Below are positions 302 to 54,095 of a stretch of 54,307 nt of DNA, piece by piece. The stretch comes from Bacteroidales bacterium (GTDB lineage: Bacteria > Bacteroidota > Bacteroidia > Bacteroidales > F082): contig JAFYUH010000202.1 of assembly GCA_017549605.1 (NCBI GenBank), forward strand, positions 1 to 54,307, in the 5' to 3' direction. Numbering within the stretch: the stretch's first letter is position 1; each line of letters starts with the position of its first letter. The translations under genes and the position numbers were made by a program. The notes under the pieces were generated by a model that saw only the letters and a list, made by a program, of their open reading frames with translations, had not been told where the DNA came from and searched no databases.

Positions 302-336
302 AGACTAAAGACCAATGGCTAATGGCTAAAGGTTAA
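302..336 (+). repeat. heptad repeat after ackA, unit NNNNNAA (left arm)
   Basis: Five consecutive 7-base units, each ending AA, two of them identical (TGGCTAA), run from just after the ackA stop to the first base of the terminator stem. A related array in inverted orientation lies at 371-410 on the other side of the terminator, so the two arms could pair. Units carry TAA, which appears in all three frames because 7 is not a multiple of 3. Confidence 0.75.
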
Positions 337-370
337 GAGAGTTCCTAAAAAATTAGGAACTCTCTTTTTT
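337..370 (+). terminator. rho-independent terminator of ackA
   Basis: A perfect 12-bp stem (GAGAGTTCCTAA with its complement) with a short A-rich loop is followed by six T. It sits 38 bases after the ackA stop and is framed by the two heptad arms. Confidence 0.88.
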
Positions 371-410
371 ATCATTAGCCTTTTGTCATTAGTCCTTTGC
401 CTTCATTGGC
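371..410 (-). repeat. heptad repeat, right arm, at 3' end of the choloylglycine hydrolase gene
   Basis: Read on the minus strand, 7-base units such as AAGGCAA and ATGACAA follow the hydrolase stop codon at 405-403. The array is the inverted counterpart of 302-336, giving a long imperfect stem around the ackA terminator. Confidence 0.65.
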
Positions 411-1482
411 TTATAGTAACCACCTCAACAGGTTGTGAATTAGGTTCATCTAATCTTTGATATTGATATTTAACCTTGCCGAAGTCGATTTCCTTAAGGT
501 CAATCATTCTGATATTGTTGTTATCGAATGTCTTGTAATAAACGACAGTATTTGTCAAGTCTATTACTGAAGTCCATTGTGTTGCGCTTGGCAAGTCAGG
601 GATTTCATTCTTAGGGAAATTCATTCCGATTGGGATGTCGAAGTTATTCAAGATATGGAAGCATTGAAGCATTGTTGCATGAGCCGTTGCCAACATTGGA
701 GCTGTAGCCTTGAAGAAAGCAACTCTCACAAAACGTGATGGAGGTGTGAAGTCGCCAGGCAAGCCAAGGAAACCGTTGCCATGACCTATTGGCTTCACCA
801 TAAAGTCAGCCATTTCATGAGCTGCTGGGTTCACAGGAGTAAGGTTGATGTAGTTACTTAAGTTATTAAGATGCCATGGAAAATTAGGAGCGTTGGTGAT
901 GACACCGATTGGGTTGTCATAGATATGAGGAACGCCGTCTTCGATTTCAAGAACGATTTGAGCGCCTGACTTATCGCCTATTCTCCAGTGAATAGCCTCC
1001 TCTGATCCATTTCCGCCCATAAGGGAAACGACACGCACCTTATTAATATTAGCCTTCAACTCTTCGACCGTAGCGAATTGTGACAATATCCATGATACAA
1101 GCTGCAAGTCGGCTATGGTAGTCGCATTATACTTTTCATCATAAAGCAGATAACTGCCGAAGTTAGGGAAATAGAACAGACCTGCCGACAGACCCGCTTC
1201 GTTAACGCCTTCTGCTATGAATTCCTTTTCATGAACAGCAAGTCCGACATAACCATATTTAGCCTTGAACGTCATTCCATTTTGACCTTTAGGAGTGAAT
1301 GATGTCTGACTGTAGTTACGAGGAACCACGACATACATACTATTAAGATTTGTACCTGCCCATTCTATTGTTCGAGCTTGTATATAAGATCCATCTGCTG
1401 CGAACATCGAGATTCCGGTACATGCCTCCGCCTTAAACTGCCAAGCGAAGAACAGACATGCGATGATTAATAATTTTTTCAT
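403..1482 (-). CDS. choloylglycine hydrolase / penicillin V acylase family protein, exported
   Basis: A 359-residue linear amide C-N hydrolase of the Ntn family, which hydrolyses amides such as conjugated bile acids, penicillin V or N-acyl homoserine lactones. A signal peptide (1-20, ending KAEA) is followed directly by Cys21-Thr-Gly; after signal cleavage Cys21 would be the N-terminal nucleophile. Other family residues are visible: Arg in ARTIEW, Asn in NEAGLSAG, Asn in ITNAPNF, Arg in PSRFVR. The acidic residue that is usually Asp in the R-T-M-D motif is Glu here. It is expected in the periplasm. It stands alone, with no transporter or regulator beside it. Substrate cannot be told from sequence alone; a bile salt hydrolase or a PVA-type acylase are both possible. 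Confidence 0.88.
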   Translation of the reverse strand: MKKLLIIACLFFAWQFKAEACTGISMFAADGSYIQARTIEWAGTNLNSMYVVVPRNYSQTSFTPKGQNGMTFKAKYGYVGLAVHEKEFIAEGVNEAGLSAGLFYFPNFGSYLLYDEKYNATTIADLQLVSWILSQFATVEELKANINKVRVVSLMGGNGSEEAIHWRIGDKSGAQIVLEIEDGVPHIYDNPIGVITNAPNFPWHLNNLSNYINLTPVNPAAHEMADFMVKPIGHGNGFLGLPGDFTPPSRFVRVAFFKATAPMLATAHATMLQCFHILNNFDIPIGMNFPKNEIPDLPSATQWTSVIDLTNTVVYYKTFDNNNIRMIDLKEIDFGKVKYQYQRLDEPNSQPVEVVTISQ

Positions 1483-1540
1483 AATCTTTATTGTTTTTAG
1501 TGAGATTTAAACAAAAGAGATTATGAAAGGTTCAATGAGA

Positions 1541-1648
1541 AGTCACCAAGACACCGAGACACCAAGACACCGAGATAAAAAAAGTGCATCGTAAATTACG
1601 ATGCACTTTTTCTTGGTGACTCGGAGTCTTGGCGACTCGGAGACTTTA
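1541..1648 (-). repeat. octamer repeat with inverted arms around a terminator (family ACCAAGAC/ACCGAGAC)
   Basis: Between the delta-60 gene and the hydrolase gene lie two arms (1541-1576 and 1611-1645) of an 8-base repeat alternating ACCAAGAC and ACCGAGAC, in opposite orientation, flanking a hairpin. The same family recurs inside queA (4037-4079) and after the gene ending at 47123. The minus-strand arm begins within a few bases of the upstream gene's stop codon. Confidence 0.85.
1577..1612 (-). terminator. terminator hairpin of the delta-60 cargo gene
   Basis: A perfect 15-bp inverted repeat (1580-1594 with 1596-1610) is flanked by an A run at 1577-1583, which gives a U-tract for minus-strand transcripts. 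The short T run on the other side could let it work in both directions. Confidence 0.8.
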
Positions 1649-3319
1649 TTTTATAACTAATTTTTCAACGTAGTTATTTTCGTTTTGTTTAACTGAAATG
1701 AAGTAAACGCCACTTTCTAAATCTTCAACATTGATTGATGAAACTGTATTTGAAATTTCAACTTCTTTAACGCAGCGACCTGTCAAGTCGATGATGCTTA
1801 CTTGAGCATTATCATTCAAAGCGCCTTCGATGAAGATTGTTGTTGTTGCAGGATTTGGATGGATTTCGAATCTGTTTTCATAATTTCCAACTACGCTAGT
1901 TGTGTCATTACCATTATTATCATCTTCGTTGTTATCACCATTACCCTCGTTACCTTCAACTGCAACATTTATGCTAGCAAGATAAATCTTTGTATAGTCG
2001 CCAGGACCTGATACTGCTGGATCGTCATAAGCAGCAAAACCAGTAACAACAAGTTTATCAGTACCTTGTAAAGCTATTGAATAAGAGTTGATTTCTTCTT
2101 GTTCATCATATACTTTTGGCAATGGAACGATGCCAGAACCTGCGAAGTTTTCATTGAATTGACCATTTTCATCAAGGTTATAAACATAAGCACGGTATAA
2201 TTCTTCACTTATATTACGTGAATAGACTGTTCCGAAGATTTGTCCGTCTGGAGCTGCTAAGATTGAATAGCTGTAGTTAACGCAGCCGTCGCCTTGGAAT
2301 GGTTCTACTTTTACATAACCTTCTTCACCGAATGTTTCGTCGATAGTACCGTCTGTATTAACGCGAGTTACGAATGATTCATATCTTGGTAATTCCGGAG
2401 TGTCTGACCATAATTCATCGTGACCGCCAACAATGTATTTACCGTTAGGTTGAACGTCGATTGACAAAGCGAATTCTGCATATTCACCAGTCCAGAGATA
2501 TACAACTCCATTTTCACCGAATGTTTCATCAATTGAACCATTTGAGTTAAGTCTCATCATATAAGACCAGATGAACATACCGTCTTCGCCAGCAGCTCTT
2601 TTATCACCACAGAGGATAATTTTACCATCATCAAGGATCTTAACATCATATGCATATGAGTGAGTGCTTGGATCTGAATCCAATTCAATAAAAGCCACGC
2701 CATCTACACCGAATGTCATATCTGGGTTACCTTTAGCGCTGTAACGTCTTACAACGATTTCATCTTGGTAGTAACCAACAACAACGCAACGACCTTTTGA
2801 ATCAATGTCGATACCTTCGAAAACGTAACCGTTTTGTTCTTGTTCTGTAACAGCCCATCCGCCTTCGCCGAAATCTTCATTTTCAAAACCGTTTTCATCT
2901 AAGCACAAAATGAAACCAGCATTAAGTCCATTAAATGCATAACCAGCGAGATAAAGCATACCATCTTCACTTAAAACTGCATCATAAGGACAGTTTTTGT
3001 AGATAAGCTCATCCACCTTCAAGAATATGATACCGCCATCGCCATAAGTTTCGTCCAATGTACCATCAACATTATGACGAGAAATATAGATAGCGTAATT
3101 GTATTTGTCAGTACGAGATTCACCGATTGTTAAGATTTTGCCATCTTCTTGTACTAAAACCTTATAAACATAATCGAAATAACCAAATGCATCAACTTTG
3201 GATGGGTGGAATACAAATACACCGTCTGTACCGAAATCTGTGTTAATTTCGCCTGGTTCTTGAGCGAAAGAAGTGAATGCTAGAATGCATACCAATGCTA
3301 GAGTAAATAATTTCTTCAT
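1646..3319 (-). CDS. secreted delta-60-repeat protein with type IX secretion C-terminal domain
   Basis: A 557-residue exported protein. The start at MKKLF (3319) is chosen over an ATG 33 bases upstream because it opens a good signal peptide (cleavage near FTSFAQ) and suits the promoter at 3365-3372. The body holds about seven delta-60 repeats with the pattern T-F-G-x-x-G (for example TFGVDGVAF, TFGENGVVY), predicted to form a beta-propeller-like structure of unknown function. An Asn/Asp/Gly-rich linker (around residues 455-480) leads to an ~80-residue C-terminal tail (HPNPATTTIFI ... GVYFISV ... EKLVIK) of the Por-secretion type A family. It is therefore a likely cargo of the type IX system whose SprA translocon is encoded at 10.8-18 kb. 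It may be released or anchored at the surface. Confidence 0.88.
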   Translation of the reverse strand: MKKLFTLALVCILAFTSFAQEPGEINTDFGTDGVFVFHPSKVDAFGYFDYVYKVLVQEDGKILTIGESRTDKYNYAIYISRHNVDGTLDETYGDGGIIFLKVDELIYKNCPYDAVLSEDGMLYLAGYAFNGLNAGFILCLDENGFENEDFGEGGWAVTEQEQNGYVFEGIDIDSKGRCVVVGYYQDEIVVRRYSAKGNPDMTFGVDGVAFIELDSDPSTHSYAYDVKILDDGKIILCGDKRAAGEDGMFIWSYMMRLNSNGSIDETFGENGVVYLWTGEYAEFALSIDVQPNGKYIVGGHDELWSDTPELPRYESFVTRVNTDGTIDETFGEEGYVKVEPFQGDGCVNYSYSILAAPDGQIFGTVYSRNISEELYRAYVYNLDENGQFNENFAGSGIVPLPKVYDEQEEINSYSIALQGTDKLVVTGFAAYDDPAVSGPGDYTKIYLASINVAVEGNEGNGDNNEDDNNGNDTTSVVGNYENRFEIHPNPATTTIFIEGALNDNAQVSIIDLTGRCVKEVEISNTVSSINVEDLESGVYFISVKQNENNYVEKLVIK

Positions 3320-3364
3320 AATTTTAAGTATTAAGTTAAATTTTTGACACAATTAATTTGGGTA

Positions 3365-3395
3365 CAAATTTAACGATTTTCATTGAACAATCCAA
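3365..3395 (-). promoter_or_regulatory. promoter of the delta-60 cargo gene
   Basis: On the minus strand TAAATTTG (3372-3365) matches the Bacteroidota -7 box TAnnTTTG; a TTG (3395-3393) lies 20 bases upstream as a possible -33 box. It supports the start at 3319. Confidence 0.65.
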
Positions 3396-3463
3396 TACCA
3401 TTTCTCATTTTTTTACAACAAAATCAAGTGTTAAAATTCAATGTATTTAACAATAAAAATAAT

Positions 3464-3471
3464 TATCTTTG
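3464..3471 (+). promoter_or_regulatory. -7 box upstream of the Pmp3-like gene
   Basis: TATCTTTG matches TAnnTTTG and lies 20 bases before the ATG at 3492. It would also drive queA, which follows 7 bases after that gene. No clear -33 box. Confidence 0.65.
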
Positions 3472-3491
3472 CAATCATAAATTCAACAACT

Positions 3492-3644: not shown

Positions 3645-3651
3645 TTGAGTG

Positions 3652-4905
3652 ATGATTAAAGAGGTTCAGAACATTTCCATCGAGGATTACAACTATCCGC
3701 TTCCAGACGAACGAATCGCAAAGTATCCATTAAGCGAACGTGACGCTTCAAAGTTATTGGTTTTGAAGAATGGAAAAATCACTTCATCTCATTTCAAAAA
3801 CATCGATGATTTCTTACCGAAAGATTCCTTATTGATATTTAACGAGACCAAGGTTGTCAGAGCTCGTCTTCAGTTCACAAAAGAAAGCGGAGCATCCATA
3901 GAAATATTCTGCCTTGAACCAATCACCGGCAATGGCGACTATCAATTAGCATTCAGCAGCGCTTCCCCATCAAGATGGCGTTGTCTTGTAGGCAATTCAC
4001 GACGTTGGAAAAGTGATAAGTTGACGATGGCGGTCGAAGTCACCAAGACACCAAGACACCAAGACACCAAGACAAAAGCCACGCTTTATGCTGAAAGAAT
4101 TGAGAAGAATGACAATTATTCCGTAATAGAATTTTCTTGGGAACCTGCAGAATTAAGTTTCGCCGAGATTTTGGAAGCAGCCGGCGAGATTCCATTGCCT
4201 CCATATCTGCATCGCGAAGCAGAAGCATCCGACAGAGAACGTTATCAGACAGTCTTTGCGAAACATGAGGGTTCGGTAGCAGCTCCTACTGCAGGACTTC
4301 ATTTTACAAACGAACTTATAGACAAACTCAAAAGCGAAGACATTGCTTTTGAAGAAGTGACATTACACGTCGGCGCCGGCACATTCCGCCCAGTTTCATC
4401 AGAGACCATCGGCGAACACGAGATGCATTCCGAGACAATAGTAGTCAGGAAATCGTGTATCGAAAACCTTATAAAAAACTGCAATAAGACCATCATACCT
4501 GTTGGAACTACCAGCATGAGAACCATAGAGTCTTTATATTGGATCGGTCTTATGCTCATCGAAGAAGGACTAGAAGAACGCAACTTACATCTGAACCAAT
4601 GGTTTCCATACAAAGAAAGAGAATCCTTGCCATCGGCAGAAGAATCTCTTTCAACAATATTAAAATATATGGAAGAACACCAGATGAATGTTTTTCACGC
4701 AAGTACCGCTTTGATGATAGCACCTTCTTGCAAGATAAACATCGCAAAAGCGCTCATCACAAATTTCCATCAGCCTAAAAGCACCTTATTATTATTAGTG
4801 TCAGCATTGATTGGCGACAAATGGAAAGAAGCTTATCAATACGCCCTTAACAACGACTTCAGATTCTTAAGTTACGGCGACAGCTGCCTTTTCCTTAATT
4901 CATAA
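3652..4905 (+). CDS. queA: S-adenosylmethionine:tRNA ribosyltransferase-isomerase, long form
   Basis: QueA moves the ribosyl part of SAM onto 7-aminomethyl-7-deazaguanine in tRNA to make epoxyqueuosine. Family motifs are clear: YPLPDERIAKYPLSERDASKL near the N-terminus, LLIFNETKVVRARL, AAPTAGLHF, LHVGAGTFRPV, and the C-terminal NFHQPKSTLLLLVSA. At 417 residues it is longer than the ~350-residue E. coli enzyme; part of the excess is a loop near residues 131-143 encoded by the 8-base repeat ACCAAGAC (see 4037-4079). The ATG at 3652 directly follows a GTG at 3649; either could start. The stop lies inside the inverted AT-rich repeat shared with the convergent response regulator gene. Confidence 0.92.
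   Translation: MIKEVQNISIEDYNYPLPDERIAKYPLSERDASKLLVLKNGKITSSHFKNIDDFLPKDSLLIFNETKVVRARLQFTKESGASIEIFCLEPITGNGDYQLAFSSASPSRWRCLVGNSRRWKSDKLTMAVEVTKTPRHQDTKTKATLYAERIEKNDNYSVIEFSWEPAELSFAEILEAAGEIPLPPYLHREAEASDRERYQTVFAKHEGSVAAPTAGLHFTNELIDKLKSEDIAFEEVTLHVGAGTFRPVSSETIGEHEMHSETIVVRKSCIENLIKNCNKTIIPVGTTSMRTIESLYWIGLMLIEEGLEERNLHLNQWFPYKERESLPSAEESLSTILKYMEEHQMNVFHASTALMIAPSCKINIAKALITNFHQPKSTLLLLVSALIGDKWKEAYQYALNNDFRFLSYGDSCLFLNS
4037..4079 (+). repeat. octamer repeat inside queA
   Basis: About four 8-base units ACCAAGAC lie within the queA reading frame and encode Thr/Lys/Pro/Gln/Asp-rich residues VTKTPRHQDTKTK. The same sequence family is intergenic at 1541-1648 and 47081-47122. Three units equal 24 bases, so gain or loss of three units keeps the frame. 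The sense strand has no stop triplet in any frame. Confidence 0.85.
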
Positions 4906-4952
4906 TTCATAATGCATAATGCACAATTATTATGAATTATGAATTATGCATT
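4894..4952. repeat. inverted heptad repeat between queA and the response regulator gene
   Basis: Units of the type ATAATTC/ATAATGC run from the last codons of queA and, inverted, into the last codons of the convergent response regulator gene. Both stop codons (queA 4903-4905; regulator 4946-4944) lie inside it. The arms can fold into a long AT-only stem that may act as a two-way terminator. Related sequence is found at the start of the sialidase gene (31758-31790). Confidence 0.8.
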
Positions 4953-5672
4953 AACTTCTGCTGGTTCCGCAACAACTAATCTGAATCCCACTCCGTGGAC
5001 TGTAAGGATTTTTACGTTAGGGTCAGCTTTGAGGTATTTTCGTAAACGAGCAATAAAGACATCCATAGAACGACCGATGAAATAATCGTTGTTACCCCAT
5101 ATCATCTTAAGGACTTTCTTACGGGTAACTAGTTCGTTTTTATTATCATACAACACCTTAAGCAAAGCCGCTTCTTTTCTCGTAAGAGGCTGCTCTTGTC
5201 CGTCTAGGATAAGAAGCATATTTTTTGCGTCAAAAACGAAACGACCGATATTTATCTTATCTCCAGAGAGCGTATATGTGAAAGGATCCTTTTTCTCCAC
5301 GCGACGCATCACCGCCTTGATTCTAAGAAGAAGTTCTTCATTAGTAAAAGGTTTTGTAAGATAATCATCGACGCCATATTCGAAATCCTTCAAAATATTG
5401 ACCAACAAGCCCTTTGAGGTAAGGAATATCATAGGCACATCAGGATTCAAAATCCTAATCTGAGCTGCTAAAGCAAAACCATCGATGCCCGTCATCTCAA
5501 TATCGAGAATACAGACATCGATGTCATATTTTTTGAAAAAGTCCAGACCCTCAACACTTTTCTTAGCAGCATACACCTTATAATCAACAGCATTCAGGCT
5601 CTCACTTATAGTATTACGCAAATCGACATCATCCTCGACAAGTAAAACTGAAGTTTTATTAAGAGTTTTCAT
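4944..5672 (-). CDS. OmpR-family response regulator, orphan
   Basis: A 242-residue two-component response regulator. The receiver domain (about 1-122) has the acidic pair E13/D14-D15, phosphoacceptor Asp57 (in LDIEM) and Lys107 (in YLTKPF). The C-terminal winged-helix DNA-binding domain (about 135-236) contains LTRKEAALLKVL and SMDVFIARLRKYL. It resembles RprY-type regulators of Bacteroidota. No histidine kinase lies next to it, so its partner is elsewhere. It is transcribed alone, converging on queA. Its targets cannot be read from the window. Switch residues look intact, so phosphorylation-dependent control is expected. Confidence 0.9.
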   Translation of the reverse strand: MKTLNKTSVLLVEDDVDLRNTISESLNAVDYKVYAAKKSVEGLDFFKKYDIDVCILDIEMTGIDGFALAAQIRILNPDVPMIFLTSKGLLVNILKDFEYGVDDYLTKPFTNEELLLRIKAVMRRVEKKDPFTYTLSGDKINIGRFVFDAKNMLLILDGQEQPLTRKEAALLKVLYDNKNELVTRKKVLKMIWGNNDYFIGRSMDVFIARLRKYLKADPNVKILTVHGVGFRLVVAEPAEVNA

Positions 5673-8177: not shown

Positions 8178-8555
8178 TCAAATATTAACATAGCGATTCC
8201 ACTCTAGTTTTATTTTATGTCCAAAATTAATCAACAAACCTAATGGATATTTGGTAATATGCAAATAGTTCAACACCTGGGACACATGATCTTTCGTCAA
8301 CAAATCAACAGCTTTAAGTTCAACTATTATGTCATCATAACAAACAAAATCTGCAATATATCTTTTTCGGAGCTTTTCACCTTTGTAATAAACATCAAGA
8401 GACACCTCTCTCATATACGGAATACCTCTATACAAAAACTCCCTTTCAAGTGCTTCTTGATAAATCGCTTCCGATAAACCACAATGAAGTTCATTATAAA
8501 CCTCATAACATGCGCCAATAATGGCATAAACTTCGTTTTCGTAAATCAGTTTCAT
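8178..8555 (-). CDS. GxxExxY protein, PD-(D/E)XK nuclease-fold family
   Basis: A 125-residue protein of the GxxExxY family (G26-x-x-E29-x-x-Y32). It carries the PD-(D/E)XK-like core IADF ... IIVELKAV, with Asp69, Glu79 and Lys81 as likely metal and catalytic residues, and a following Q-x-x-x-Y helix. The family is assigned to the PD-(D/E)XK superfamily but its biological function is not known. The start at MKLIYENE (8555) is chosen because the longer frame upstream is only translated repeat sequence. The stop codon abuts a partial copy of the same 73-bp repeat that forms three tandem copies upstream. This pairing suggests that the protein may act on, or travel with, the repeat. Confidence 0.85.
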   Translation of the reverse strand: MKLIYENEVYAIIGACYEVYNELHCGLSEAIYQEALEREFLYRGIPYMREVSLDVYYKGEKLRKRYIADFVCYDDIIVELKAVDLLTKDHVSQVLNYLHITKYPLGLLINFGHKIKLEWNRYVNI

Positions 8556-8580
8556 AGAAAAAAATATTTTGGTTGTAAGG

Positions 8581-8794
8581 TTGTCCACGAATAAACACCA
8601 ATCAAACACCAATAAGATTCGTGTGAATTCGTGCAGATTCGTGGTTGAATGTTTTGTCCACGAATAAACACCAAGCAAACACCAATAAGATTCGTGTGAA
8701 TTCGTGTAGATTCGTGGTTGAATGTTTTGTCCACGAATAAGCACCAATCAAACACCAATAAGATTCGTGTGAATTCGTGCAGATTCGTGGACAA
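8581..8794 (-). repeat. three tandem copies of a 73-bp repeat
   Basis: Copies start at 8581, 8654 and 8727 (period 73, nearly identical). Each opens with TTGTCCACGAAT and holds a 10-base sub-repeat beginning ATTCGTG three times. The last copy ends ATTCGTGGACAA, the inverse of the opening. A shortened copy is at 8141-8177, and diverged relatives at 50573-50636 and 47688-47716. Frames through the array have no conserved start and look untranslated. Confidence 0.92.
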
Positions 8795-8802
8795 AGCAAC
8801 AA

Positions 8803-26013: not shown

Positions 26014-26080
26014 ATATGAGCTATGAGCTATGAGCTATGAGCTATGAGCCCAATGCCCACAGCTCACGACTCATGGCTAA
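26014..26080. repeat. heptad repeat between hydG and hydF (unit TATGAGC)
   Basis: Five near-perfect TATGAGC units (26016-26050) are followed by a diverged inverted arm (about 26056-26076). A relative lies at 54030-54058. On the plus strand each unit holds TGA. Confidence 0.88.
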
Positions 26081-27499
26081 TTAAAATCTAAAATCTCTTT
26101 CGCCATTGTCGATGGCTTCCAAATATTTCGCTGCTGTGGCGCGTGCCTTTTCGTTTGGAACTGTCTGCAACAGACGTTGTATCATCGCCTTGGCTTTTTC
26201 CTTGACTTCAGGTGATGCGTAGTCGTTGGCATATTCCTTCAATGTTATCAAAGCATTTGGCAAGCAGCAGTTAGCGATCTGTCCGCTCTTGAGCAATGAC
26301 ATGAAACGGTCGCCTGTTCTGCCTTCGCGGTAACATGCTGTACAGAAGCTTGGGATATGGTCGAGGTCGAGGAGCCATCCGACTACTTCGTCGAGGGTAC
26401 GGTGGTCAGCGACGTCGAACTGTGCTGAGTTTTCTTCTTCGGTTTCAGGTGTCACATAGCCGCCGACACTTGTGCGCGAGCCTCCGCTGATCTGTGAGAT
26501 ACCGAGTTCCAAGAGGCGAGCGCGGCTCTTCTCACTCTCACGAGTAGAGATGATCATACCTGTATAAGGAACAGCAATTCTTATGATTGCCACTATTCTA
26601 TAGAAGATATCGTCTGGCACTGCATTCTTGAAATCTGCTGTGTCGATGTCGTCTGCCATGCAAAGACGAGGCACGCTTATAGTATGAGGACCTACTCCGT
26701 AAGTTGCTTCAAGGTGTTCTGCGTGCATGAGCAAACCGACGAAGTCGTAACGGTAAGTCTCTAAGCCGAACAACACTCCGATACCGACGTCATCGATGCC
26801 GCCTTGCATAGCGCGGTCCATAGCCTCGGTATGATATGCATAGTCGCTCTTTGGTCCTGTTGGGTGAAGAGCCTCGTAGTTTTCTTTGTTATATGTCTCT
26901 TGGAAAAGGATGTAAGTACCGATACCAGCATCGCGTAACTTCTGATAATTCTCTACTGTTGTAGCAGCGATGTTGACATTGACACGACGGATAGCGCCGT
27001 TCTTATGCTTGATGCTGTAGATAGTCTTGATACTTTCCAAGATATATTCGATAGGGTTTTCCACTGGATGTTCGCCAGCTTCGAGAGCAAGACGTTTGTG
27101 ACCCATGTCCTGCAAAGCGATGACTTCCTGACGGATCTCTTCTTGAGATAATTTCTTACGACGGATGCTCTTGTTCTTAAGATGATAAGGACAATATACG
27201 CAGCCGTTGACGCAATAGTTAGAGAGATAAAGCGGAGCGAACATCACTATTCTGTTGCCGTAGAATTTATGTTTTATCTCACGAGCTATGTCGTAGATCT
27301 CGTTGATGATTTCCTGGTCGTTGCACTCAAGAAGAAGAGCTGCTTCTCTGTGAGTGAGGCCCTTGCATTCACGAGCTTTTTGAAGTATAGATTTTATAAG
27401 TTCAATATTATTGCTGTTTTCGCGGGCATAAGCCATCGTTTCGCGAATCTCGGAATCACTGATGAATTCCTCTGCTATTTGTGATTTGATATTATACAT
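26081..27499 (-). CDS. hydG: [FeFe]-hydrogenase maturase HydG (radical SAM tyrosine lyase)
   Basis: A 472-residue radical SAM enzyme that splits tyrosine to p-cresol, CO and cyanide, the diatomic ligands of the H-cluster. The SAM-cluster motif is Cys96-x3-Cys100-x2-Cys103 (CVNGCVYC). The second cluster at the C-terminus is bound by CTACYREGRTG and the later NCCLPNAL, as in other HydG. Typical segments LFQETYNKENYEALHP and GGSRTSVGGY are present. It lies between hydE and hydF, with 42 and 69 bases of repeat-bearing spacer. Confidence 0.96.
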   Translation of the reverse strand: MYNIKSQIAEEFISDSEIRETMAYARENSNNIELIKSILQKARECKGLTHREAALLLECNDQEIINEIYDIAREIKHKFYGNRIVMFAPLYLSNYCVNGCVYCPYHLKNKSIRRKKLSQEEIRQEVIALQDMGHKRLALEAGEHPVENPIEYILESIKTIYSIKHKNGAIRRVNVNIAATTVENYQKLRDAGIGTYILFQETYNKENYEALHPTGPKSDYAYHTEAMDRAMQGGIDDVGIGVLFGLETYRYDFVGLLMHAEHLEATYGVGPHTISVPRLCMADDIDTADFKNAVPDDIFYRIVAIIRIAVPYTGMIISTRESEKSRARLLELGISQISGGSRTSVGGYVTPETEEENSAQFDVADHRTLDEVVGWLLDLDHIPSFCTACYREGRTGDRFMSLLKSGQIANCCLPNALITLKEYANDYASPEVKEKAKAMIQRLLQTVPNEKARATAAKYLEAIDNGERDFRF

Positions 27500-28620: not shown

Positions 28621-28652
28621 AAGACAACGGACAACAGACAACGGACAACAGA
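28621..28652. repeat. heptad repeat (ACAACGG/ACAACAG) between hydE and the acyltransferase
   Basis: Four 7-base units alternating ACAACGG and ACAACAG, followed by a T run. Same family as 32885-32972, 52618-52711 and 53978-54009. Confidence 0.88.
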
Positions 28653-31639: not shown

Positions 31640-31661
31640 ATTTTGACTTTGAAATAAGTAC

Positions 31662-31733
31662 AGACGTGTCAATGATGTATCTAAATTAAAATAATTCGTA
31701 TTCATATACAAATTACATCATTGACGCGTCTCT
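31662..31733. repeat. large inverted repeat after the DivIC-like gene
   Basis: Arms of 18 bases (31662-31679 and about 31714-31731, one mismatch), each with AGACG at its outer end, enclose an AT-rich loop. A related short hairpin with AGACG/CGTCT ends is at 45642-45663, and another at 45054-45077. It could be a terminator or a dispersed hairpin element. Confidence 0.75.
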
Positions 31734-31772
31734 ACAAACTGAACTTTAAATCCATAATTATCATTGTGAATT

Positions 31773-32924
31773 ATGAATTCTGAATTAAAAAAACTTTTAT
31801 TACCTTTATTAATACTTATTCCTATTTTCTTTTCTTGCGAGAAGAAAGATAATTTCGACGGTTATACCCGCACCGTAGTTTATCGTCCTGGTGACTATGG
31901 TTCAAAATACTATCGCATCCCGACTTTGATAACTGCCAAAGACGGCAGTCTCGTCATCTTCTCCGACAAACGCAAGGAAAACGAAACCGATTTGCCTGAA
32001 GACATCGACGTCATCTGCAACTACAGCACCGACGGTGGCTTGACATGGAGCGAACCTTATACTATCGCAAAAGGCTTCGGTTATATGGAAGGCTACGGCG
32101 ACTGCGCAGTGGCTCACACCAACGACGACAACGGTCTCATCGCTATATTCGTAGGAGGACAAGGTTTCTGGCAATCGACAGCGGCTAATCCAAACAGAAC
32201 ATACAAGTCAATGAGTTACGACAACGGACGTACATGGACAGAACCAGAAGACATCACACATTTCATCTTCGGCTACGAATGTGACGACCCTATCAGAAGC
32301 AAATGGCGCGCTTCGTTCTGCGCTGCCGGCAACGGACTACTCACCAGTAAAGGCAGAATCATGTTCGTCGCTTGCGTACGCGAGACATCAGCTTTCTCGG
32401 CAAACAATTACGTAATCTATTCTGATGACAATGGCGCGACATGGAACGTATCCGGACGCGCTTCAGTAGGCGGCGACGAAGCTAAAGTGGTGGAGCTCAA
32501 CAACGGCGACATCTTGATGAGTATCCGCACTTCTGGAAAGAGATGGTATAACATCTCTCACGACGGAGGCGTGACCTGGAACGAGACACATTCTGTATGG
32601 AACGAACTCGTAGCACCAGCCTGCAACGGCGACATCATAAGATATGACGAGAACACATTGTTACACAGTCTCCCTACAGGCAACTCACGCCGCGACGTGG
32701 CGATATACATCTCCAACGACGAAGGAAAGACCTGGAACGAAGGAAAGATAGTAGTGCCTCGCTTCTCCGCATATTCTTCATTATGCATATTGCCAGACAA
32801 CACAATCGGCATGTACGTAGAGGAAAGAGAAGTAGACACCACCAGCTACGAAATGGTGTTTTATAGATTCCCTATTGAATATTTAAGACAACAGTCTACA
32901 GACAACGGACAACAGAATTTTTAA
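31773..32924 (+). CDS. sialidase-like lipoprotein (GH33/BNR family)
   Basis: A 383-residue exported exo-sialidase candidate, which releases terminal sialic acid from host glycans. A lipobox (IFFSC, Cys22) predicts a lipoprotein. The YRIP motif with the first catalytic Arg is at about 47-50, and there are five Asp-box repeats (for example STDGGLTWSEP, SYDNGRTW, SDDNGATW, SNDEGKTW). The segment AKVVELNNGDILMSIR carries the usual Glu and second Arg; AYSSLCIL holds the likely nucleophile Tyr. Both ends are odd: the ATG lies in an AT-rich heptad repeat, and the last ~12 residues (RQQSTDNGQQNF) are translated ACAACAG-type repeat. Substrate linkage cannot be inferred. Confidence 0.88.
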   Translation: MNSELKKLLLPLLILIPIFFSCEKKDNFDGYTRTVVYRPGDYGSKYYRIPTLITAKDGSLVIFSDKRKENETDLPEDIDVICNYSTDGGLTWSEPYTIAKGFGYMEGYGDCAVAHTNDDNGLIAIFVGGQGFWQSTAANPNRTYKSMSYDNGRTWTEPEDITHFIFGYECDDPIRSKWRASFCAAGNGLLTSKGRIMFVACVRETSAFSANNYVIYSDDNGATWNVSGRASVGGDEAKVVELNNGDILMSIRTSGKRWYNISHDGGVTWNETHSVWNELVAPACNGDIIRYDENTLLHSLPTGNSRRDVAIYISNDEGKTWNEGKIVVPRFSAYSSLCILPDNTIGMYVEEREVDTTSYEMVFYRFPIEYLRQQSTDNGQQNF

Positions 32925-32972
32925 ACAGCAGTTAAAAACCGTTGACTGTCGACAGTTGTCTGTTGACTTTTA
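32885..32972. repeat. inverted heptad repeat (ACAACAG family) at the sialidase 3' end
   Basis: The first arm (32885-32916) lies in the coding region and forms the protein tail; the inverted arm (about 32940-32968) follows the stop. Together they make a long imperfect stem that may end transcription before the next promoter at 32963-32993, which overlaps the second arm. Confidence 0.82.
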
Positions 32973-37108: not shown

Positions 37109-37150
37109 TCTTGAACTTTGAACCTTGAACTAAGGCTTTTGAACTTCAAG
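37109..37150 (+). repeat. heptad repeat directly after the PFOR stop (unit NNNTGAA)
   Basis: Six 7-base units in perfect phase, four ending TTGAA, begin at the first base after TAA. TGA occurs in most units, hence in all frames. The terminator follows 10 bases later. Confidence 0.82.
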
Positions 37151-44388: not shown

Positions 44389-44400
44389 ATCCTAAAAGTA

Positions 44401-44464
44401 TTCCTAATTCCTAACTCCCAACTCCTAACTCCTAACTCCTAACTCCTAATTCCCAACTCCCTCT
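44401..44464 (-). repeat. heptad array GTTAGGA at the end of the sigma factor gene
   Basis: Plus-strand CTCCTAA-type units repeat about eight times (44401-44464). Read in the gene direction they are GAGTTAG, so TAG recurs in each unit. The sigma stop TAG (44441-44439) and the last four codons (Gly-Ile-Arg-Ser) are inside the array. Confidence 0.92.
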
Positions 44465-45619: not shown

Positions 45620-45703
45620 ATAATTAAATTCCTAATCTATTAGACGCCACAGGAGTGACGTCTCTACATAAACTCCTAACTCCTAATTCCTAACTCTCAA
45701 CTA
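45620..45703 (-). repeat. AGACG hairpin plus GTTAGGA heptads between DUF2461 and cyclo-ligase genes
   Basis: A hairpin AGACGCCAC/TGACGTCT (45642-45663) is followed by CTCCTAA-type units (about 45671-45698) that end two bases before the DUF2461 stop. In the gene direction the units read GTTAGGA. Confidence 0.82.
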
Positions 45704-46417: not shown

Positions 46418-46518
46418 TGAAATTCAGAAATTCAGAAATTCAAAACTTCAAAAAATTCTGAACTTTTGAGTTTCAGAAATTTTGAGATTCTGAGATTCTG
46501 AACTTTTGAGTTTCTATA
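46418..46518 (-). repeat. octamer repeat (AAAAGTTC/AGAATCTC/CTGAATTT) after the small membrane gene
   Basis: In the gene direction 8-base units ending TTC or CTC keep phase for ~90 bases from the stop of the gene at 46519 to the hairpin at 46417, with the later units being inverted relatives of the first. Confidence 0.8.
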
Positions 46519-47024: not shown

Positions 47025-47122
47025 GTCAACTGTCTACAGACAACAGACCTTGAGTAAAAAAATCGCAAAGACACAAAATTCTTAGTGACTCGGTGTCTCG
47101 GCGTCTTGGTGACTTGGTGACT
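47025..47122 (-). repeat. ACAACAG palindrome and ACCAAGAC octamers after the gene at 47123
   Basis: Octamers ACCAAGTC/ACCAAGAC/GCCGAGAC (47083-47122, read on the minus strand) abut the TGA stop of the upstream gene. About 35 bases on lies a short palindrome with ACAACAG units (47025-47048). Confidence 0.82.
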
Positions 47123-47503
47123 TCAAATAATAAGGTGTCTTACTATAACAATTAAATCTTCCTTCGATGACAAAGGAGATGAGAACTTCAAATTATAATT
47201 CTCTGTTGGCTGCACTTCTGCGGAGAAGCGTTTCAAGAGAATGTTATTTATCAGATTCTGTTGGGTTTTCTTCTGTGATGAAATAAGTCGGAACGACGGC
47301 AGCGGAAGAGAATTCTGCAATTCAGGGATGATGGTCTTGTCGGAAGCCGCATCGAAAATAGACTCTATATCAGACTGCTGTCTGTCAAAGATATAAGACT
47401 CTTCTATATCTGTAACATTAACAAATGAAGAAACATCAGCTTTCGTAGAGAAAGCCAGAGCAATGAATATCAACGATATTATTGTCAAAATATGTTTCTT
47501 CAT
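47123..47503 (-). CDS. small exported protein, unknown
   Basis: A 126-residue protein with a clear signal peptide (about 1-22, ending STKAD) and no lipobox. The rest is polar, with YIFDRQQSDIESIFDAASDK and a basic C-terminal half; no family recognised. It has a -7 box 19 bases upstream. It may be a small periplasmic factor; there is no further evidence. Confidence 0.6.
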   Translation of the reverse strand: MKKHILTIISLIFIALAFSTKADVSSFVNVTDIEESYIFDRQQSDIESIFDAASDKTIIPELQNSLPLPSFRLISSQKKTQQNLINNILLKRFSAEVQPTENYNLKFSSPLSSKEDLIVIVRHLII

Positions 47504-47529: not shown

Positions 47530-47581
47530 ACACTTTTTAGGTAAAAATGTTGCAGTTTTTTTAGTCTGTTGATTTTTCTTT

Positions 47582-47716
47582 GGGCGTTCCGGCAAAGCCG
47601 TCGGGCTTTCCGCTCTATCTTTTTTCGCTACGCTCCAAAAGGATGCCGCTCCAATCCCTAACGCATTGAGCGATGGAAGTAGTAACTACAAAGATACGTG
47701 CAAATCCTCGTGATAC
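47582..47716. repeat. dispersed-type repeat element and GATACGTG-type repeat
   Basis: 47582-47664 begins GGGCGTTCC and ends CCTAACGC, with the inner words GGGCTTTCCGCT and AAAGGATGCCGCT. I recognise this layout as a common intergenic element of Bacteroidota. It is GC-richer than its surroundings. At 47688-47716 a GATACGTG ... CGTGATACGTGG repeat related to the 73-bp family encodes the last residues of the GH20 protein. Confidence 0.7.
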
Positions 47717-49492: not shown

Positions 49493-49534
49493 AGAAAAAT
49501 GTAAATGAAGTGAAAAACCAATCATAAATTATTG

Positions 49535-49542
49535 TAAATTTG
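49535..49542 (+). promoter_or_regulatory. -7 box of the YitT-family gene
   Basis: TAAATTTG, 19 bases before the ATG at 49562. Confidence 0.65.
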
Positions 49543-49561
49543 CACACCAAAAAATTATACA

Positions 49562-50515: not shown

Positions 50516-50522
50516 AAAATCA

Positions 50523-50546
50523 AGCCGCTAATCAGCGGCTTTTTTT
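50523..50546 (+). terminator. terminator of the YitT-family gene
   Basis: AGCCGCT/AGCGGCT stem with a 4-base loop and seven T, 8 bases after the stop. Confidence 0.9.
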
Positions 50547-50572
50547 ATACACTACTTTCACTATAATACATA

Positions 50573-50636
50573 TCCACTAATCTTCACGAATCAACACTAA
50601 ACTTTCGTGACAATTCGTGTCATTTCGTGGACAAAT
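50573..50636 (-). repeat. TTCGTG-type repeat at the GH89 3' end
   Basis: Diverged copy of the 73-bp family: TTCGTG recurs three times at ~10-base spacing and ends TTCGTGGACAAA. The GH89 stop codon and its last residues (YLSTK) are encoded by it. Confidence 0.78.
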
Positions 50637-52821
50637 ATCTTTTCCAGATTTTTCGTAAGATTTTCTTGGTATCACCTTGTGGTTGGGAAGAATATTTCAA
50701 TGCTTTGTTAAAGCACCATTCTCGCTCCATCGCAAACCATCCTCCTTCAGGCGACTGCAAATCATTTTCAAAGAAATATTCCCATCGTGGATAGTAAAAA
50801 TCCTTTAGCATACCACCCCAGGCTCTGTAAGAATAATCGCGCAAACCACCTTTGTTGGCATTGGCTTCATCTCCCCATGTAGTTATTAAAGTACGGGCAT
50901 TATTCAATTCCAACCAATCTTTGTCAGATTCCACAGTTCCCTCAAACTCATCAGCGATATCGCGTGCCATCTGCGTCCAATTACCAAACATGAAATTCTT
51001 ATTCGTGTTCAGCAAGGCATCCATATCCAATATCAAAGACAAGAAAGCATCACGTTGTTTTTTAAAACCTTTGACATTACCTTCATCATAAGATTTCTTA
51101 ATATCTTTTAACAAATAATAAGCATAATCCATCAAAGCCTGACGAGATATTTCAATAAGGTCGAAATAATAGTTTTCTCCAGATAGATCAGTTTTCAACA
51201 ACAGACGAGCCGCTTCTCTAACATCATCCGTATTATAAAAGATATCCGTCCCGCCCCATGACGACACCTTGTCAACCGTCAATGAAGGACGAGCGCAGAC
51301 CACTGCCTCATGCGGACCTTGCAATGACGTTTTACAATCCAATGCCGAATTACGCAACAACTCCCAAGCTTTAATCGCATGTTCATTTTCTTGTCCATAA
51401 CGGCTTACCGTATAATTACGCATCCATTCTTTGGCATCAGGTTTCTCGTCATGCCAAGGTAACTCAAATAAAATGTCATATAAGACAGGTACAGAACCAA
51501 TACCCTCGGGTGTCGCGCCTATGCCTTTTATGTTAGGATGTGAATTTTTATTTTCAAAATAACCGTCAATGACGCCATTGAAACGCCCCATAAAACCTGA
51601 GCGACCTCCGAAGTTAGGCAACATGCAATAGACGGCGTCATGACCTTTATATTCACCGAAATGCGTGTGCGCCGTCGAGAACAAATCCAGTATTATCAAG
51701 TCACCTTTCGCCACCTGATCAAGAACGTGATATTGATCCGAATACCATTGCCAATATTGAATCACCCATTTCTCATCTATGTCGTCATTTGCAGCAAACA
51801 TAGCATCAGCGATGGCTTTATAAGCAGATGCCACATCGATGTCACTAGTATTTGCGCCTTCATGAAATGGATCCATGCTGTAATATTGCGACGTCCCCAT
51901 CACCTCAGCGAGCACCTTATAGTAGTTGGCTGCCATCTTCTTAAAATCCTCTGTATTTGGATTCAAGATATGAGGGCGAGTGAAACCACACCACAACCCT
52001 TGTCCGTTCGCCGATATTCCGGTCTTTTCCGTGAAGTTGCTCGGCACCATGCCGCTGAAACCAGGAAGCACAGGCTGCATGCCTAGTTCTCGCATCCTAT
52101 CACATATCTTTTTCGCCAGAACAGCCTGACGCTCATACCACCAATCAGGATTAGGACCGCCCCAAGATTCGAGGTTGTTCATTCCCCACCACGCCTGAAA
52201 ACAAGGTCCAGCGATGAAAGCATCTGCTTCTTCAGAAGTGTAATTGTAATATTCCGTTAACAATTTTTTCCAAACCACATCGAGACCGACGATCTGCAAA
52301 GGCATGTTGATACCATGTAACGCCATCCAGTCGATTTCCTTCTCCCAACGCTCCCACGTCCAGACCGACATCGAATAAGAAAAAGTACAATAGTTGAGAT
52401 AATAACGATAGTCGGCAGAACAAACATGCATCTCATCTTCAGAAGGAATCGGGAATTCATAAGAAGACAAATCGTTGAGATATAAATTATTCCACGATAG
52501 ATTTATTTTAGCATAATGATTCAGATACCAATTGACACCCGTTGTTATCGCTAATACAGAATTACCTTTAACACAAGGTTTCCCATCTTTAGAAGTGATA
52601 ATAAAAACATCTTCTCTCAACTGTTGACTGTTGTCCGTTGTCTGTTGTCCAAGATTTTCATCCAAAACCGTAACTATCAACTGTTGACCGTTATCTGTTG
52701 TCTGTTGACCTAAAACTCTAGATAAAAAATCATTGATGACTTTTTCAGACGTATTTAATGAATCTGCAAAAACATCAAACGATAATAGAAATAAACAAAG
52801 TAAAGTAATAAGTGTTTTCAT
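50620..52821 (-). CDS. alpha-N-acetylglucosaminidase (GH89)
   Basis: A 733-residue exported glycosidase that removes terminal alpha-GlcNAc, as on gastric-type mucin O-glycans or heparan fragments. A signal peptide (about 1-19) precedes an N-terminal domain (to ~110), the catalytic barrel (about 115-460; YYLNYCTFSYSMSVWTWERWEKEIDWMALHGINMPL, YSMDPFHEG with a catalytic Glu, ATPEGIG with the second) and a C-terminal helical domain. Two copies of a translated heptad repeat, LGQQTTDNxQQL, sit at residues 37-48 and 57-68, exactly 20 residues apart. The C-terminus YLSTK comes from a different repeat. Neither affects the catalytic core. Confidence 0.93.
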   Translation of the reverse strand: MKTLITLLCLFLLSFDVFADSLNTSEKVINDFLSRVLGQQTTDNGQQLIVTVLDENLGQQTTDNSQQLREDVFIITSKDGKPCVKGNSVLAITTGVNWYLNHYAKINLSWNNLYLNDLSSYEFPIPSEDEMHVCSADYRYYLNYCTFSYSMSVWTWERWEKEIDWMALHGINMPLQIVGLDVVWKKLLTEYYNYTSEEADAFIAGPCFQAWWGMNNLESWGGPNPDWWYERQAVLAKKICDRMRELGMQPVLPGFSGMVPSNFTEKTGISANGQGLWCGFTRPHILNPNTEDFKKMAANYYKVLAEVMGTSQYYSMDPFHEGANTSDIDVASAYKAIADAMFAANDDIDEKWVIQYWQWYSDQYHVLDQVAKGDLIILDLFSTAHTHFGEYKGHDAVYCMLPNFGGRSGFMGRFNGVIDGYFENKNSHPNIKGIGATPEGIGSVPVLYDILFELPWHDEKPDAKEWMRNYTVSRYGQENEHAIKAWELLRNSALDCKTSLQGPHEAVVCARPSLTVDKVSSWGGTDIFYNTDDVREAARLLLKTDLSGENYYFDLIEISRQALMDYAYYLLKDIKKSYDEGNVKGFKKQRDAFLSLILDMDALLNTNKNFMFGNWTQMARDIADEFEGTVESDKDWLELNNARTLITTWGDEANANKGGLRDYSYRAWGGMLKDFYYPRWEYFFENDLQSPEGGWFAMEREWCFNKALKYSSQPQGDTKKILRKIWKRYLSTK
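52618..52711 (-). repeat. two heptad repeats inside the GH89 reading frame
   Basis: Two ~33-base blocks of ACAACAG/ACAACGG units (52618-52651 and 52678-52711), 60 bases apart, are read in the same frame. The sense strand of this family has no stop triplet in any frame. Confidence 0.88.
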
Positions 52822-52824
52822 TTT

Positions 52825-52898
52825 AGTTTAAGGTTTAAGGTTAAGGTTTAAAGTTTTCTGAGATTTTGAATTTCTAATAAAAAAATTCCTAACTCTCA
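52825..52898. repeat. heptads GGTTTAA, octamer and GTTAGGA between GH89 and DAHP synthase genes
   Basis: 52825-52853 has TTTAAGG-type units; 52855-52875 an octamer like 46418-46518; 52886-52898 a GTTAGGA-type word next to the DAHP synthase stop. Confidence 0.72.
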
Positions 52899-53954
52899 AA
52901 GTTGTCTATCAATCGAATCCTTATGAATACTTTCAAAAATATCTTTGACAAGAGTTTCATTCAAACCAAGGAGTTTACCTTTTTCGATATGATTTGACAA
53001 TATAGAATTCCATCTATCGAGTTGAAGCACAGCGAGGTTATTCTCTTTCTTTATCACTCCTATTTTAGAAGATATCTCACTTCTTTTAGCCAAGAGCTGC
53101 AACAATTCCTCGTCGATGTTATCGATCTGGTTTCTCAGTTCTTGAAGGAGGAAATCTGCATTATTCGACTTGGTTTTATGAACCACCAGATTATCGAGCA
53201 GCAGCTTCAAATCGTTAGGAGTTATCTGCTGATCAGCGTCGGTGAGAGCCATTTCAGGATTACAATGCGACTCTATCATAAGACCGTTTGTCGCGAGATC
53301 GAGAGCTTTTTGTGCTGTCGACTGCAGAATCTCGCGGCATCCGCATATATGACTTATGTCTGTTATTATCGGGATGTTAGGATTTTTACGATGTAGTTCG
53401 ATAGGAATTTCCCAGCGAGGGTTGTTGCGATAAGGAGCAGCGTTAGTGTCTTGGAAACCGCGATGTATCGCAACGAGATGAGTGAGACCTGAAGAAGCGA
53501 GACGTTCGAAAGCGCCGATCCATAACTTAAGGTCGGGCGCTATAGGATTTTTCACGAAGACAGGAATATCGACGCCGCTGAGAACGTCGGCAAGCTGCTG
53601 CATAGAGAAAGGATTCGCTGTTGTTCTGGCACCGATCCACAGAGCATCGACTTCATATTTCAATGCCAACTCTGCATGTTCAGGCGTCGCCACCTCCGTC
53701 ATGAAAGGCAGCTTTGAAGCTCGTGAAATCTCTCTCATCCATTTTAAGCCCTCCTCACCTATTCCTTCGAAGCCGTTAGGACGAGTGCGAGGTTTCCAGA
53801 TACCGCCACGCAAGATTTTAACTTCTTGTATATTTGATAGTTTTACAACAGTGTCTGAAAATTGTTCCTTGCTTTCCACACTGCACGGACCCGCAATAAG
53901 CAAAAGCTCATCGGGATTTTCAATCCATCCTTTTATGTCAAAACTATCTCTCAT
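52896..53954 (-). CDS. DAHP synthase fused to chorismate mutase (type II)
   Basis: A 352-residue fusion. The N-terminal barrel (about 1-255) is a DAHP synthase of the KDO8P-like class (IAGPCSVES, KILRGGIWKPRTRP, ITDISHICG, IESHCNPEMALTD), making the first shikimate-pathway intermediate. The C-terminal ~85 residues are an AroQ-type chorismate mutase (LLQELRNQIDNIDEELLQLLAKRSEIS...IGVIKKENN). Such fusions link pathway entry to phenylalanine/tyrosine synthesis and are usually feedback-controlled through the mutase part. The start at 53954 is set by the promoter at 53965-53972. Confidence 0.94.
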   Translation of the reverse strand: MRDSFDIKGWIENPDELLLIAGPCSVESKEQFSDTVVKLSNIQEVKILRGGIWKPRTRPNGFEGIGEEGLKWMREISRASKLPFMTEVATPEHAELALKYEVDALWIGARTTANPFSMQQLADVLSGVDIPVFVKNPIAPDLKLWIGAFERLASSGLTHLVAIHRGFQDTNAAPYRNNPRWEIPIELHRKNPNIPIITDISHICGCREILQSTAQKALDLATNGLMIESHCNPEMALTDADQQITPNDLKLLLDNLVVHKTKSNNADFLLQELRNQIDNIDEELLQLLAKRSEISSKIGVIKKENNLAVLQLDRWNSILSNHIEKGKLLGLNETLVKDIFESIHKDSIDRQL

Positions 53955-53964
53955 CTTTTTTTTG

Positions 53965-53972
53965 CAAAAATA
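53965..53972 (-). promoter_or_regulatory. -7 box of the DAHP synthase gene
   Basis: Minus-strand TATTTTTG, 10 bases before the ATG at 53954. Confidence 0.6.
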
Positions 53973-53977
53973 TAAAA

Positions 53978-54095
53978 AGTCAACGGACAACAGACAACAG
54001 ACAACAGACTTTTTTTACTAGCTGTTTTGCCCACAACTCATAGCTCATAGCTCACAGCAAAAAAATCTTTCATCTTTTGTCTTTAGTCTTTAGAC
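53978..54095. repeat. three heptad families between the DAHP synthase gene and asnS
   Basis: ACAACAG units (53978-54009), CTCATAG-type units (54030-54058, inverse of TATGAGC) and GTCTTTA units (about 54067-54094) lie in series in one divergent spacer. Confidence 0.85.

Follow-up and report, generated by a model that had tools for sequence, protein, structure and literature searches.

The spacers of a 54,307-nt contig of an uncultured Bacteroidales bacterium from the ruminant gut (JAFYUH010000202.1; the whole stretch is called the window here) carry short tandem arrays that keep an exact period of 7 or 8 nt, and many of these arrays use about ten degenerate words which are common throughout the genome. 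We tentatively favour the view that they are dispersed, phase-locked blocks, an unusually rich form of the heptamer-repeat class, which would be copied, rewritten in register and tolerated, with a bonus as transcription terminators. Dispersed repeats of heptamer type are on record from Cyanobacteria, Beggiatoaceae and Xanthomonas, and no origin or function for them has been accepted. Searches of the open-licence literature gave no account of the present repeat set from Bacteroidales. With its many words, its two periods and dozens of species that can be compared, the genus makes the competing ideas testable.

Arrays of period 7 and 8 and their placement

The window is contig C201 of the genome G000 (2.53 Mb in 205 contigs, 84.75% complete). 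Its arrays were found by Tandem Repeats Finder and by reading every spacer, and were then scored by a single fixed rule. Of the 20 arrays counted in this way, 14 have period 7 and 6 have period 8; 20 block shuffles of the window gave on average 0.4 arrays and at most 2. With a stricter rule 8 period-7 and 4 period-8 arrays were left, and none of periods 4–6 and 9–13. A first-pass annotation of the same DNA had reported exact-phase arrays at at least 15 loci, which these counts bear out; all eight sites that it named carry arrays, at or within a few bases of where it had placed them. For genome-wide counts we used a sample of 774,725 bases of the 2.53 Mb, consisting of the window and 60 further stretches. 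About half of these stretches were chosen from contigs with ACCAAGAC matches, a selection which favours period 8, so that the period-8 share may be inflated. In 401 spacers, defined by a generous caller of greedy long open reading frames (ORFs; 90% coding), we counted 105 arrays of period 7 and 63 of period 8, compared to none of periods 3–6, 11 and 13, one of period 9 and two each of periods 10 and 12. The harmonics were present as well (55 of period 14, 45 of period 16), and five dinucleotide shuffles of the spacers yielded no array of any period. The excess over other periods that the annotation had proposed to check against shuffled spacers is thus real. For the generous ORF set of this sample the counts were 45 (period 7) and 17 (period 8). 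Array counts by gene context depend on the caller: with a second, trained caller, later run at a looser setting, 190 of 238 arrays lay outside genes, 28 inside and 20 at gene edges. An assembly artefact is unlikely, because the arrays are 20–60 nt long and orthologous arrays occur in separate metagenome-assembled genomes of related species.

The arrays are not evenly distributed over spacer types (in a separate tally by context, 118 of 293 arrays were without usable gene context). Their density was 3.9 per kb in convergent spacers (16 of 37 with arrays), 2.8 per kb in tandem spacers (72 of 221), where they lean to the end of the upstream gene, and 0.9 per kb in divergent spacers (6 of 38). The earlier description of arrays that fill gene 3' spacers therefore holds for the bias to the 3' side, but ‘fill’ is too strong, as some arrays are found in reading frames or upstream of divergent genes. 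Among 196 pairs of neighbouring arrays 37 were inverted matches, compared to 12 direct matches and 11.7 expected from random partners. RNA folding of 12 hand-picked stretches gave z-scores between -3.8 and -12.6 for ten of them, and -0.4 and -0.7 for two stretches with a single arm. Cores of terminator type with T runs are located at 338–366 and 1580–1611, while many arrays have none.

Words, block length and turnover of sites

The first-pass annotation had held that the period is constant and not the sequence. The exact phase stands, whereas the spelling is far from free, given the roughly ten shared words, and the number of units is constrained. Its observation that families recur at distant sites was correct. 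We profiled seven words (arrays/copies in brackets): RGWCAAC (F2; 62/250), RGYTCAR (F6; 34/180), AAYTCCY (F5; 44/190), AATKCAY (F4; 28/110), RCCRAGWC (F8; 49/187), CCTYARTT (F11; 28/166) and TCARAANY (F9; 57/252). Their core positions are mostly 94–100% fixed, and their free positions take mainly two letters. Additional words are RRCTCAY (F3), GNCTAAW (F1 type) and CCCTCATA; 63 of 293 arrays fit none of the ten.

Regardless of the word, the mode lies at 4–5 units: 127 of 267 period-7 and 70 of 166 period-8 arrays of G000 have this size. The tally starts at arrays of 2 units, and the copy number does not fall off from the shortest arrays, unlike in an open-ended slippage microsatellite. RGWCAAC is the clearest case: of its 72 arrays, 58 consist of exactly 4 copies and 55 span 31–33 nt in total, and in the relative G027 30 of 38 arrays have 4 copies. 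Four copies were also found in 17 of 31 AATKCAY arrays, 28 of 52 of RCCRAGWC (commonly 35–38 nt), 21 of 50 of AAYTCCY, 31 of 66 of TCARAANY and 11 of 15 of GNCTAAW; RGYTCAR and CCTYARTT have broad distributions. A typical block of the most frequent heptad word is thus about 32 nt long, and one of the ACCAAGAC octad word 38 nt. In low-GC relatives 17 of 46 period-7 and 14 of 29 period-8 arrays have 4–5 units; in high-GC congeners this applies to 14 of 30 period-7 arrays, and period 8 peaks at 3–4 units (6 of 13). The first unit of RGWCAAC differs from the later ones: W is T in 35 of 58 first units compared to 50 of 174 of the others (Fisher p 3e-5); the figures for G027 are 23 of 30 and 25 of 90 (p 3e-6). 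This excess in both species is the behaviour expected from copies of one block. The base frequencies at the free positions (A63 G28 T8 / A58 T41 versus A66 G33 / A62 T38 in the comparison of G000 with G027) are kept nearly unchanged, though the sites are mostly unshared.

The short tandemly repeated repetitive sequences (STRR) of cyanobacteria likewise consist of 7-base units in intergenic positions. The likeness to these heptamers that the annotation had drawn holds for the 7-base class, while the best published match, within the accessible text of the two papers used here for comparison, is the GGGANTN heptamer of Xanthomonas (Rehm et al. 2015, PMC4692102). According to that text GGGANTN has a four-unit mode and 70 and 75 inverted convergent pairs in two genomes, lies close to stop codons with few cases between divergent genes and few within genes, and is prominent at different genes in two species; GGGGA(C/T)T heptamer repeats are described from Nostoc. 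The arrays described here share the heptamer period, the fixed and free positions, the four-unit mode, the inverted convergent pairs, the location near stop codons and the scarcity in divergent spacers. What sets them apart is that a single genome uses about ten words, that period 8 occurs as well, that terminator cores are nested between the arms and that, by one gene set, intragenic cases are more numerous. The accessible text connects the four units of GGGANTN with G-quadruplexes. Here, 69 of 108 arrays of 4–5 units are without four GG tracts, and four GGG tracts occur in 15 of 238 arrays. That words mostly lacking quadruplex potential have the same anatomy speaks against the quadruplex as the general reason for four units; a four-unit mode which needs no G tracts touches the published reading. 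TAACTGA direct repeats are described in the available text of MacGregor 2015 (PMC4679880) from Beggiatoaceae, Cyanobacteria and five Bacteroidetes, so heptamer arrays in a Bacteroidales genome are less unexpected than the annotation had assumed. Both sets are mostly intergenic heptamer arrays with related words across phyla. However, the TAACTGA repeats, as that text presents them, are perfect, most commonly of 2 copies and mostly just upstream of start codons, with one inverted case and related heptamers rarely repeated, whereas the arrays here are degenerate, 3'-biased, of 4–5 units and form inverted pairs. As far as both papers convey it, the heptanucleotide class of long simple sequence repeats (LSSR) has the period-7 excess and the idea of a polymerase footprint in common with our arrays, but not the degenerate, word-sharing, block-like form nor the period-8 set (PMC4679880, PMC4692102). 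Unlike in a class of period 7 only, period 8 is nearly as common here (63 versus 105 arrays in the spacers). In 150 kb of Nostoc plasmids we counted one period-7 array and three period-9 arrays, two of which form an inverted pair. This pair, GTGTGGGGA / CCTCCCACA at L213:45024-45126 (NZ_CP046705.1), resembles the paired arrays of our window.

We then compared relatives, among which the word repertoire, the sites and the spelling of the copies vary. A scan with queA gave 42 loci, nine of them close (L004–L012), with record titles naming a Bacteroidales or Lentimicrobiaceae bacterium and several from ruminant gut. Period-7 and period-8 arrays together amounted to 30.7 per 100 kb in G000, 12.0 in G009 and 17.5 in G027, and to 9–28 in L005–L010 and L012. 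Higher-GC congeners had 0–15 and three genomes of other families 0, mostly in small samples. L006 is dominated by period 8 (0 arrays of period 7 versus 4 of period 8). In L008, at about 7.0 kb and 10.4 kb, period-6 arrays (GTCATT/GTCAGT, ATTGAC) stand where relatives have period 7 or 8. Triplets of RGWCAAC matched in 5 of 60 relatives and were numerous only in G000, G009 and G027. When G000 was compared with 419 kb sampled from G027, orthology could be followed at 21 of 207 array clusters, for which both flanks were found. At 12 of these 21 sites G027 has no array, at 3 the same word, at 1 a one-letter variant and at 5 a different word. The RGWCAAC array at 53981 is kept in G009 with one A/G change, and the copy number at an orthologous site was 5 versus 3. 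Downstream of the acetate kinase-type gene, the window, L004 and L005 have retained the terminator core and L006 has a similar one, while the arms switch word and period among the window and L004–L008. In one loop of an ETF-domain protein, reading by eye showed RGWCAAC in G000 and an RGCCAAN-like run in G009; G027 has no array there, and some congeners have heptad runs of other kinds.

Beyond the genus, 23 of 395 Bacteroidota genomes match a pattern of three and a half RGWCAAC-type units; among the matches listed outside G000 most are uniform TGACAAC or TGTCAAC runs, and the backward control matches equally. Four RGWCAAC copies were found in 15 viral contigs, several of which represent the same element, with more uniform copies. 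Environmental viral contigs of GC 0.65–0.68 (L237, L242, L243, L245, L247) contain several heptad words (GGACAAC, TGACAAC, GTCAGTC, GGGGATT), and one of them, L247, has arrays in both orientations. As signs of cross-phylum word use, the matches of an RGWCAAC array to plasmids (2 Streptomyces records, E 0.7) and of an AATTCAT hairpin (32 records, E up to 1) were weak.

Explanations of the arrays

According to the reading that we tentatively favour, blocks of 4–5 units would be copied from existing arrays to new places, and template switching at short homologies during replication might rewrite them in register; arrays may thus act as donors for one another. They would persist where little harm is done, behind stop codons and in protein loops, and inverted pairs would be retained more often than not as presumably stronger two-way transcription terminators. 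This reading is supported by the identical words at many unlinked sites (among others 62 RGWCAAC and 49 RCCRAGWC arrays), by the discrete four-copy block of 31–33 nt, by the 12 of 21 empty orthologous sites, by the copy number of 5 versus 3, and by multi-unit strings that AAYTCCY arrays share above permutation (n=3: 141 versus 69, sd 15; arrays with repeated flanks were removed from this test, for RGWCAAC 10 of 62). It also agrees with the order of densities (convergent, then tandem, then divergent), the excess of inverted pairs and the folding of 10 of 12 stretches.

Several results weigh against this reading, which is weak on mechanism. We found neither a target duplication nor a mobilising gene for the arrays. 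For RGWCAAC no clear excess of shared strings was observed (n=3: 77 versus 71, sd 10; n=4: 9 versus 4.7, sd 2.2), which whole-block copying should leave. Linkage between free columns two bases apart in a unit is nearly absent (r2 <=.064), and block copying alone fails on this point. The QueA loop, too, suggests growth in place and not a clean insertion, because it is just 7–8 residues longer where the array has about 40 nt; octad arrays of differing spelling lie in this loop in the window and L004–L008 and are absent in L010–L012 (L009 could not be anchored), the loop being 7–21 residues longer in array carriers than in L010–L012. Of 196 pairs of neighbours just 37 are inverted matches, too few for a terminator role to account for the class. 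Nor are the two arms of one hairpin more alike than re-paired arms: 16 TCARAANY pairs gave.601 versus.624 when re-paired, and 5 AATKCAY pairs.767 versus.846 (the test was limited to these two words; five words with 0–3 pairs were excluded). On the transcribed strand of tandem spacers G.U and A.C mismatches numbered 26 to 19, no clear signal, and selection for an RNA hairpin is thus not visible.

Growth in place is also the core of the alternative that we regard as possible, with a lower probability: local slippage, in which a polymerase footprint of 7–8 nt would extend local seeds and the arrays would then be pruned. The footprint idea is credited to Mrazek 2007 in the accessible parts of PMC4679880 and PMC4692102, which also report heptamers as over-represented in many bacteria. 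Besides the strict period, some arrays look local by eye: in L006 the unit AGTCTATG matches the final bases of the gene upstream, the two arms of one spacer show concerted differences between L007 and L008, and one intragenic loop carries arrays, of different words, in several species. To this we can add the likeness of copies in free columns. Adjacent copies were more alike than permuted ones in AAYTCCY (.702 versus.635, sd.022) and RGYTCAR (.639 versus.604, sd.018; any pair.642 versus.604, sd.011) and weakly in CCTYARTT (.601 versus.562, sd.026). RCCRAGWC copies do not match next door (.536 versus.558) but are alike two units apart (.652 versus.560, sd.029). However, three of the seven words tested, namely RGWCAAC (.524/.534), AATKCAY (.616/.662) and TCARAANY (.398/.422), show no greater likeness between neighbours than between copies of different arrays, and for such words plain local slippage fails. 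It also leaves unexplained one word at 62 sites, the identical free positions in two species and the four-unit block. Slippage alone therefore fails on shared words, unrelated neighbours and block size.

MetJ with its 8-bp boxes and the plasmid omega protein with its heptads are proteins that bind direct repeats of 7 or 8 bp. It is accordingly conceivable, with a rather low probability, that the words are degenerate recognition units at which a DNA-binding protein packs cooperatively every 7 or 8 bp. Core positions that are 95–100% fixed next to free ones with only A/G, C/T or A/T look like a recognition profile, and SARP-LAL proteins bind heptad direct repeats as far as the accessible text tells. 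Against this, about ten words would require several proteins, the sites are not conserved between G000 and G027, and arrays also occur inside genes. A binding protein alone fails on the many words and on the turnover of sites.

We consider it about equally improbable that cells write blocks of about 32–38 nt from a lineage-specific degenerate word, in steps of 7 or 8 nt and with units spelled largely independently, so that the word would outlast the sites and all such repeats would form one cross-phylum class with no link to G-quadruplexes. If this were true, a templating or recognition step with a stride of 7–8 nt and a limit of about 4.6 units would be required; a dedicated factor that writes or recognises the words would be a new one.

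Selection of RNA hairpins, with the arrays as arms of extended two-way terminators or as stabilisers of mRNA 3' ends and the repeats following from selection for long stems, appears still more doubtful. It is in line with the 3' bias, with the terminator cores nested between arms at 301–412 and 1540–1646 (z -8.5 and -12.6), with the exchange of arms for those of another word behind the acetate kinase-type gene, and with a fixed polarity behind stop codons, which we observed in five of ten words. The first array behind the stop codon (sense/anti) was AATKCAY in 16/0, AAYTCCY in 1/16, CCTYARTT in 2/14, CCCTCATA in 0/7 and TCARAANY in 17/4 cases; the second array tended to the opposite (in the same order 0/9, 5/0, 10/1, 3/0 and 2/7). 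However, clear polarity is absent in RGWCAAC (3/5), RGYTCAR (4/7), the GNCTAAW type (3/2), the RCTCAY type (2/3) and RCCRAGWC (3/3), many arrays are single, and single arms do not fold. The arms are also not co-spelled where testable, and a clear G.U bias is missing. Stop codons as the cause of the polarity were considered and rejected: they fit F4, F5, F11 and F11b, but F9 does not fit. Rho utilisation sites were dropped too, because the sense strand has no excess of C over G (C>G in 44.8% of 105 tandem arrays and in 40.9% of 22 arrays in convergent spacers).

Finally, it is very improbable that the arrays are mobile elements like the repetitive extragenic palindromic sequences (REP) and their paired forms (REPIN), for which a Y1 (RAYT) transposase would be the mover, or that a reverse transcriptase produced them: our arrays are likewise dispersed, intergenic and partly palindromic, but their arms are internally phased tandems, Y1_Tnp (28 of 40 genus genomes; one match in G009) has no match in the array-rich G000 (84.75% complete) and G027 (91%), and RVT_1 has one match in G000 (9.7e-12) and none in G027.

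Arrays of the window and neighbouring repeats

Two structures with a terminator core between their arms lie near the start of the window. A GACTAAA-type array (F1; 301–336) forms the 5' arm around a terminator-like stem-loop with T run (338–366), and a period-7 arm of reverse-complement CATTAGT type follows at 370–412, seen by eye and under the score cut-off. At 1540–1575 a period-8 array ACCAAGAC (F8) is one arm, followed by an A-run, stem-loop and T-run (1575–1611) and a reverse-complement arm of period 8 (16) at 1611–1646; in the folded stretch 1535–1646 the arms close over the terminator-like stem. Other paired arrays are AATTCAT (F4; 4896–4927), which overlaps the queA stop codon, with its arm ATTATGA (4929–4953; z -5.7), five copies of TATGAGC (F3; 26015–26049) with a degenerate arm noted by eye (26054–26082; z -6.4), and the period-8 array GAAATTCA (F9; 46419–46453) with the arm TTCTGAGA (46476–46509; z -6.0). 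A degenerate F2 array with an inverted F2 stretch of GTTGACT type (32886–32967) stays under the cut-off.

Further period-7 arrays are ATTATGA (F4; 31763–31786), TTGAACT behind a stop codon (F6; 37111–37130), AAYTCCY with 9 copies (F5; 44400–44461), a second F5 array (45671–45702) and TTTAAGG (52826–52856), for which 52820–52895 gave no hairpin (z -0.7). A single period-8 arm (F8; 47085–47123) does not fold alone (z -0.4 for 47075–47125). An F2 array (53981–54009), CTCATAG (F3; 54037–54058) and TTTAGTC (F1 type; 54065–54098) sit together upstream of two divergent genes, and their whole spacer folds with z -5.4. The RGWCAAC array at 28623–28652 has four full copies from 28622 in one register. 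The 5' flank of RGWCAAC is often GCAAAGATAATAAA-like, as at window 28622 and in L083, L227, L228 and L231; we take this flank to be the complement of a TATCTTTGC promoter-like element, the array lying as if just upstream of a promoter.

Three window arrays lie inside reading frames: one at 655, which is probably due to chance, an F8 array within queA (4037–4074, plus strand; Queuosine_synth domain match) and an F2 array within a NAGLU-type gene (52620–52649, minus strand). In the sample intragenic arrays were oriented 17/0 for F2, 8/0 for F8 and 0/3 for F5. For F2 and F8 this orientation would be expected from survival without stop codons, and we did not use it as evidence on mechanism. As most of the 8 intragenic, family-labelled ACCAAGAC arrays sit in paralogues that have a secretion-tail domain, they are not independent cases. 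In paralogous genes of L095 (contig C75), L085, L094 and L131 a ACCAAGTC octad array lies some 34 codons ahead of the stop; one of these paralogues has a Por_Secre_tail domain, and those of C75 succeed each other every ~2.1 kb.

The window also contains repeats of other kinds. At 8581–8790 a 73-bp unit occurs 2.9 times, with CACGAAT/ATTCGTG half-repeats in steps of about 10 nt, also found at 8748–8802 and 50590–50640. It flanks a PD-(D/E)XK-type gene (8178–8747); repeats of similar form adjoin a comparable gene in L007, L010 and L012, and L005 has related repeats without the gene. A dispersed hairpin GACGTGTCAATGATG...CATTGACGCGTCTCTAC is located at 31660–31735; the 775-kb sample contains 10 exact copies of one end and 16 of the other, and the hairpin adjoins heptad arrays in several loci. 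Another dispersed repeat (47570–47685) ends in GGATGCCGCTCCAATCCCTAACGC, with 8 exact copies in the same sample.

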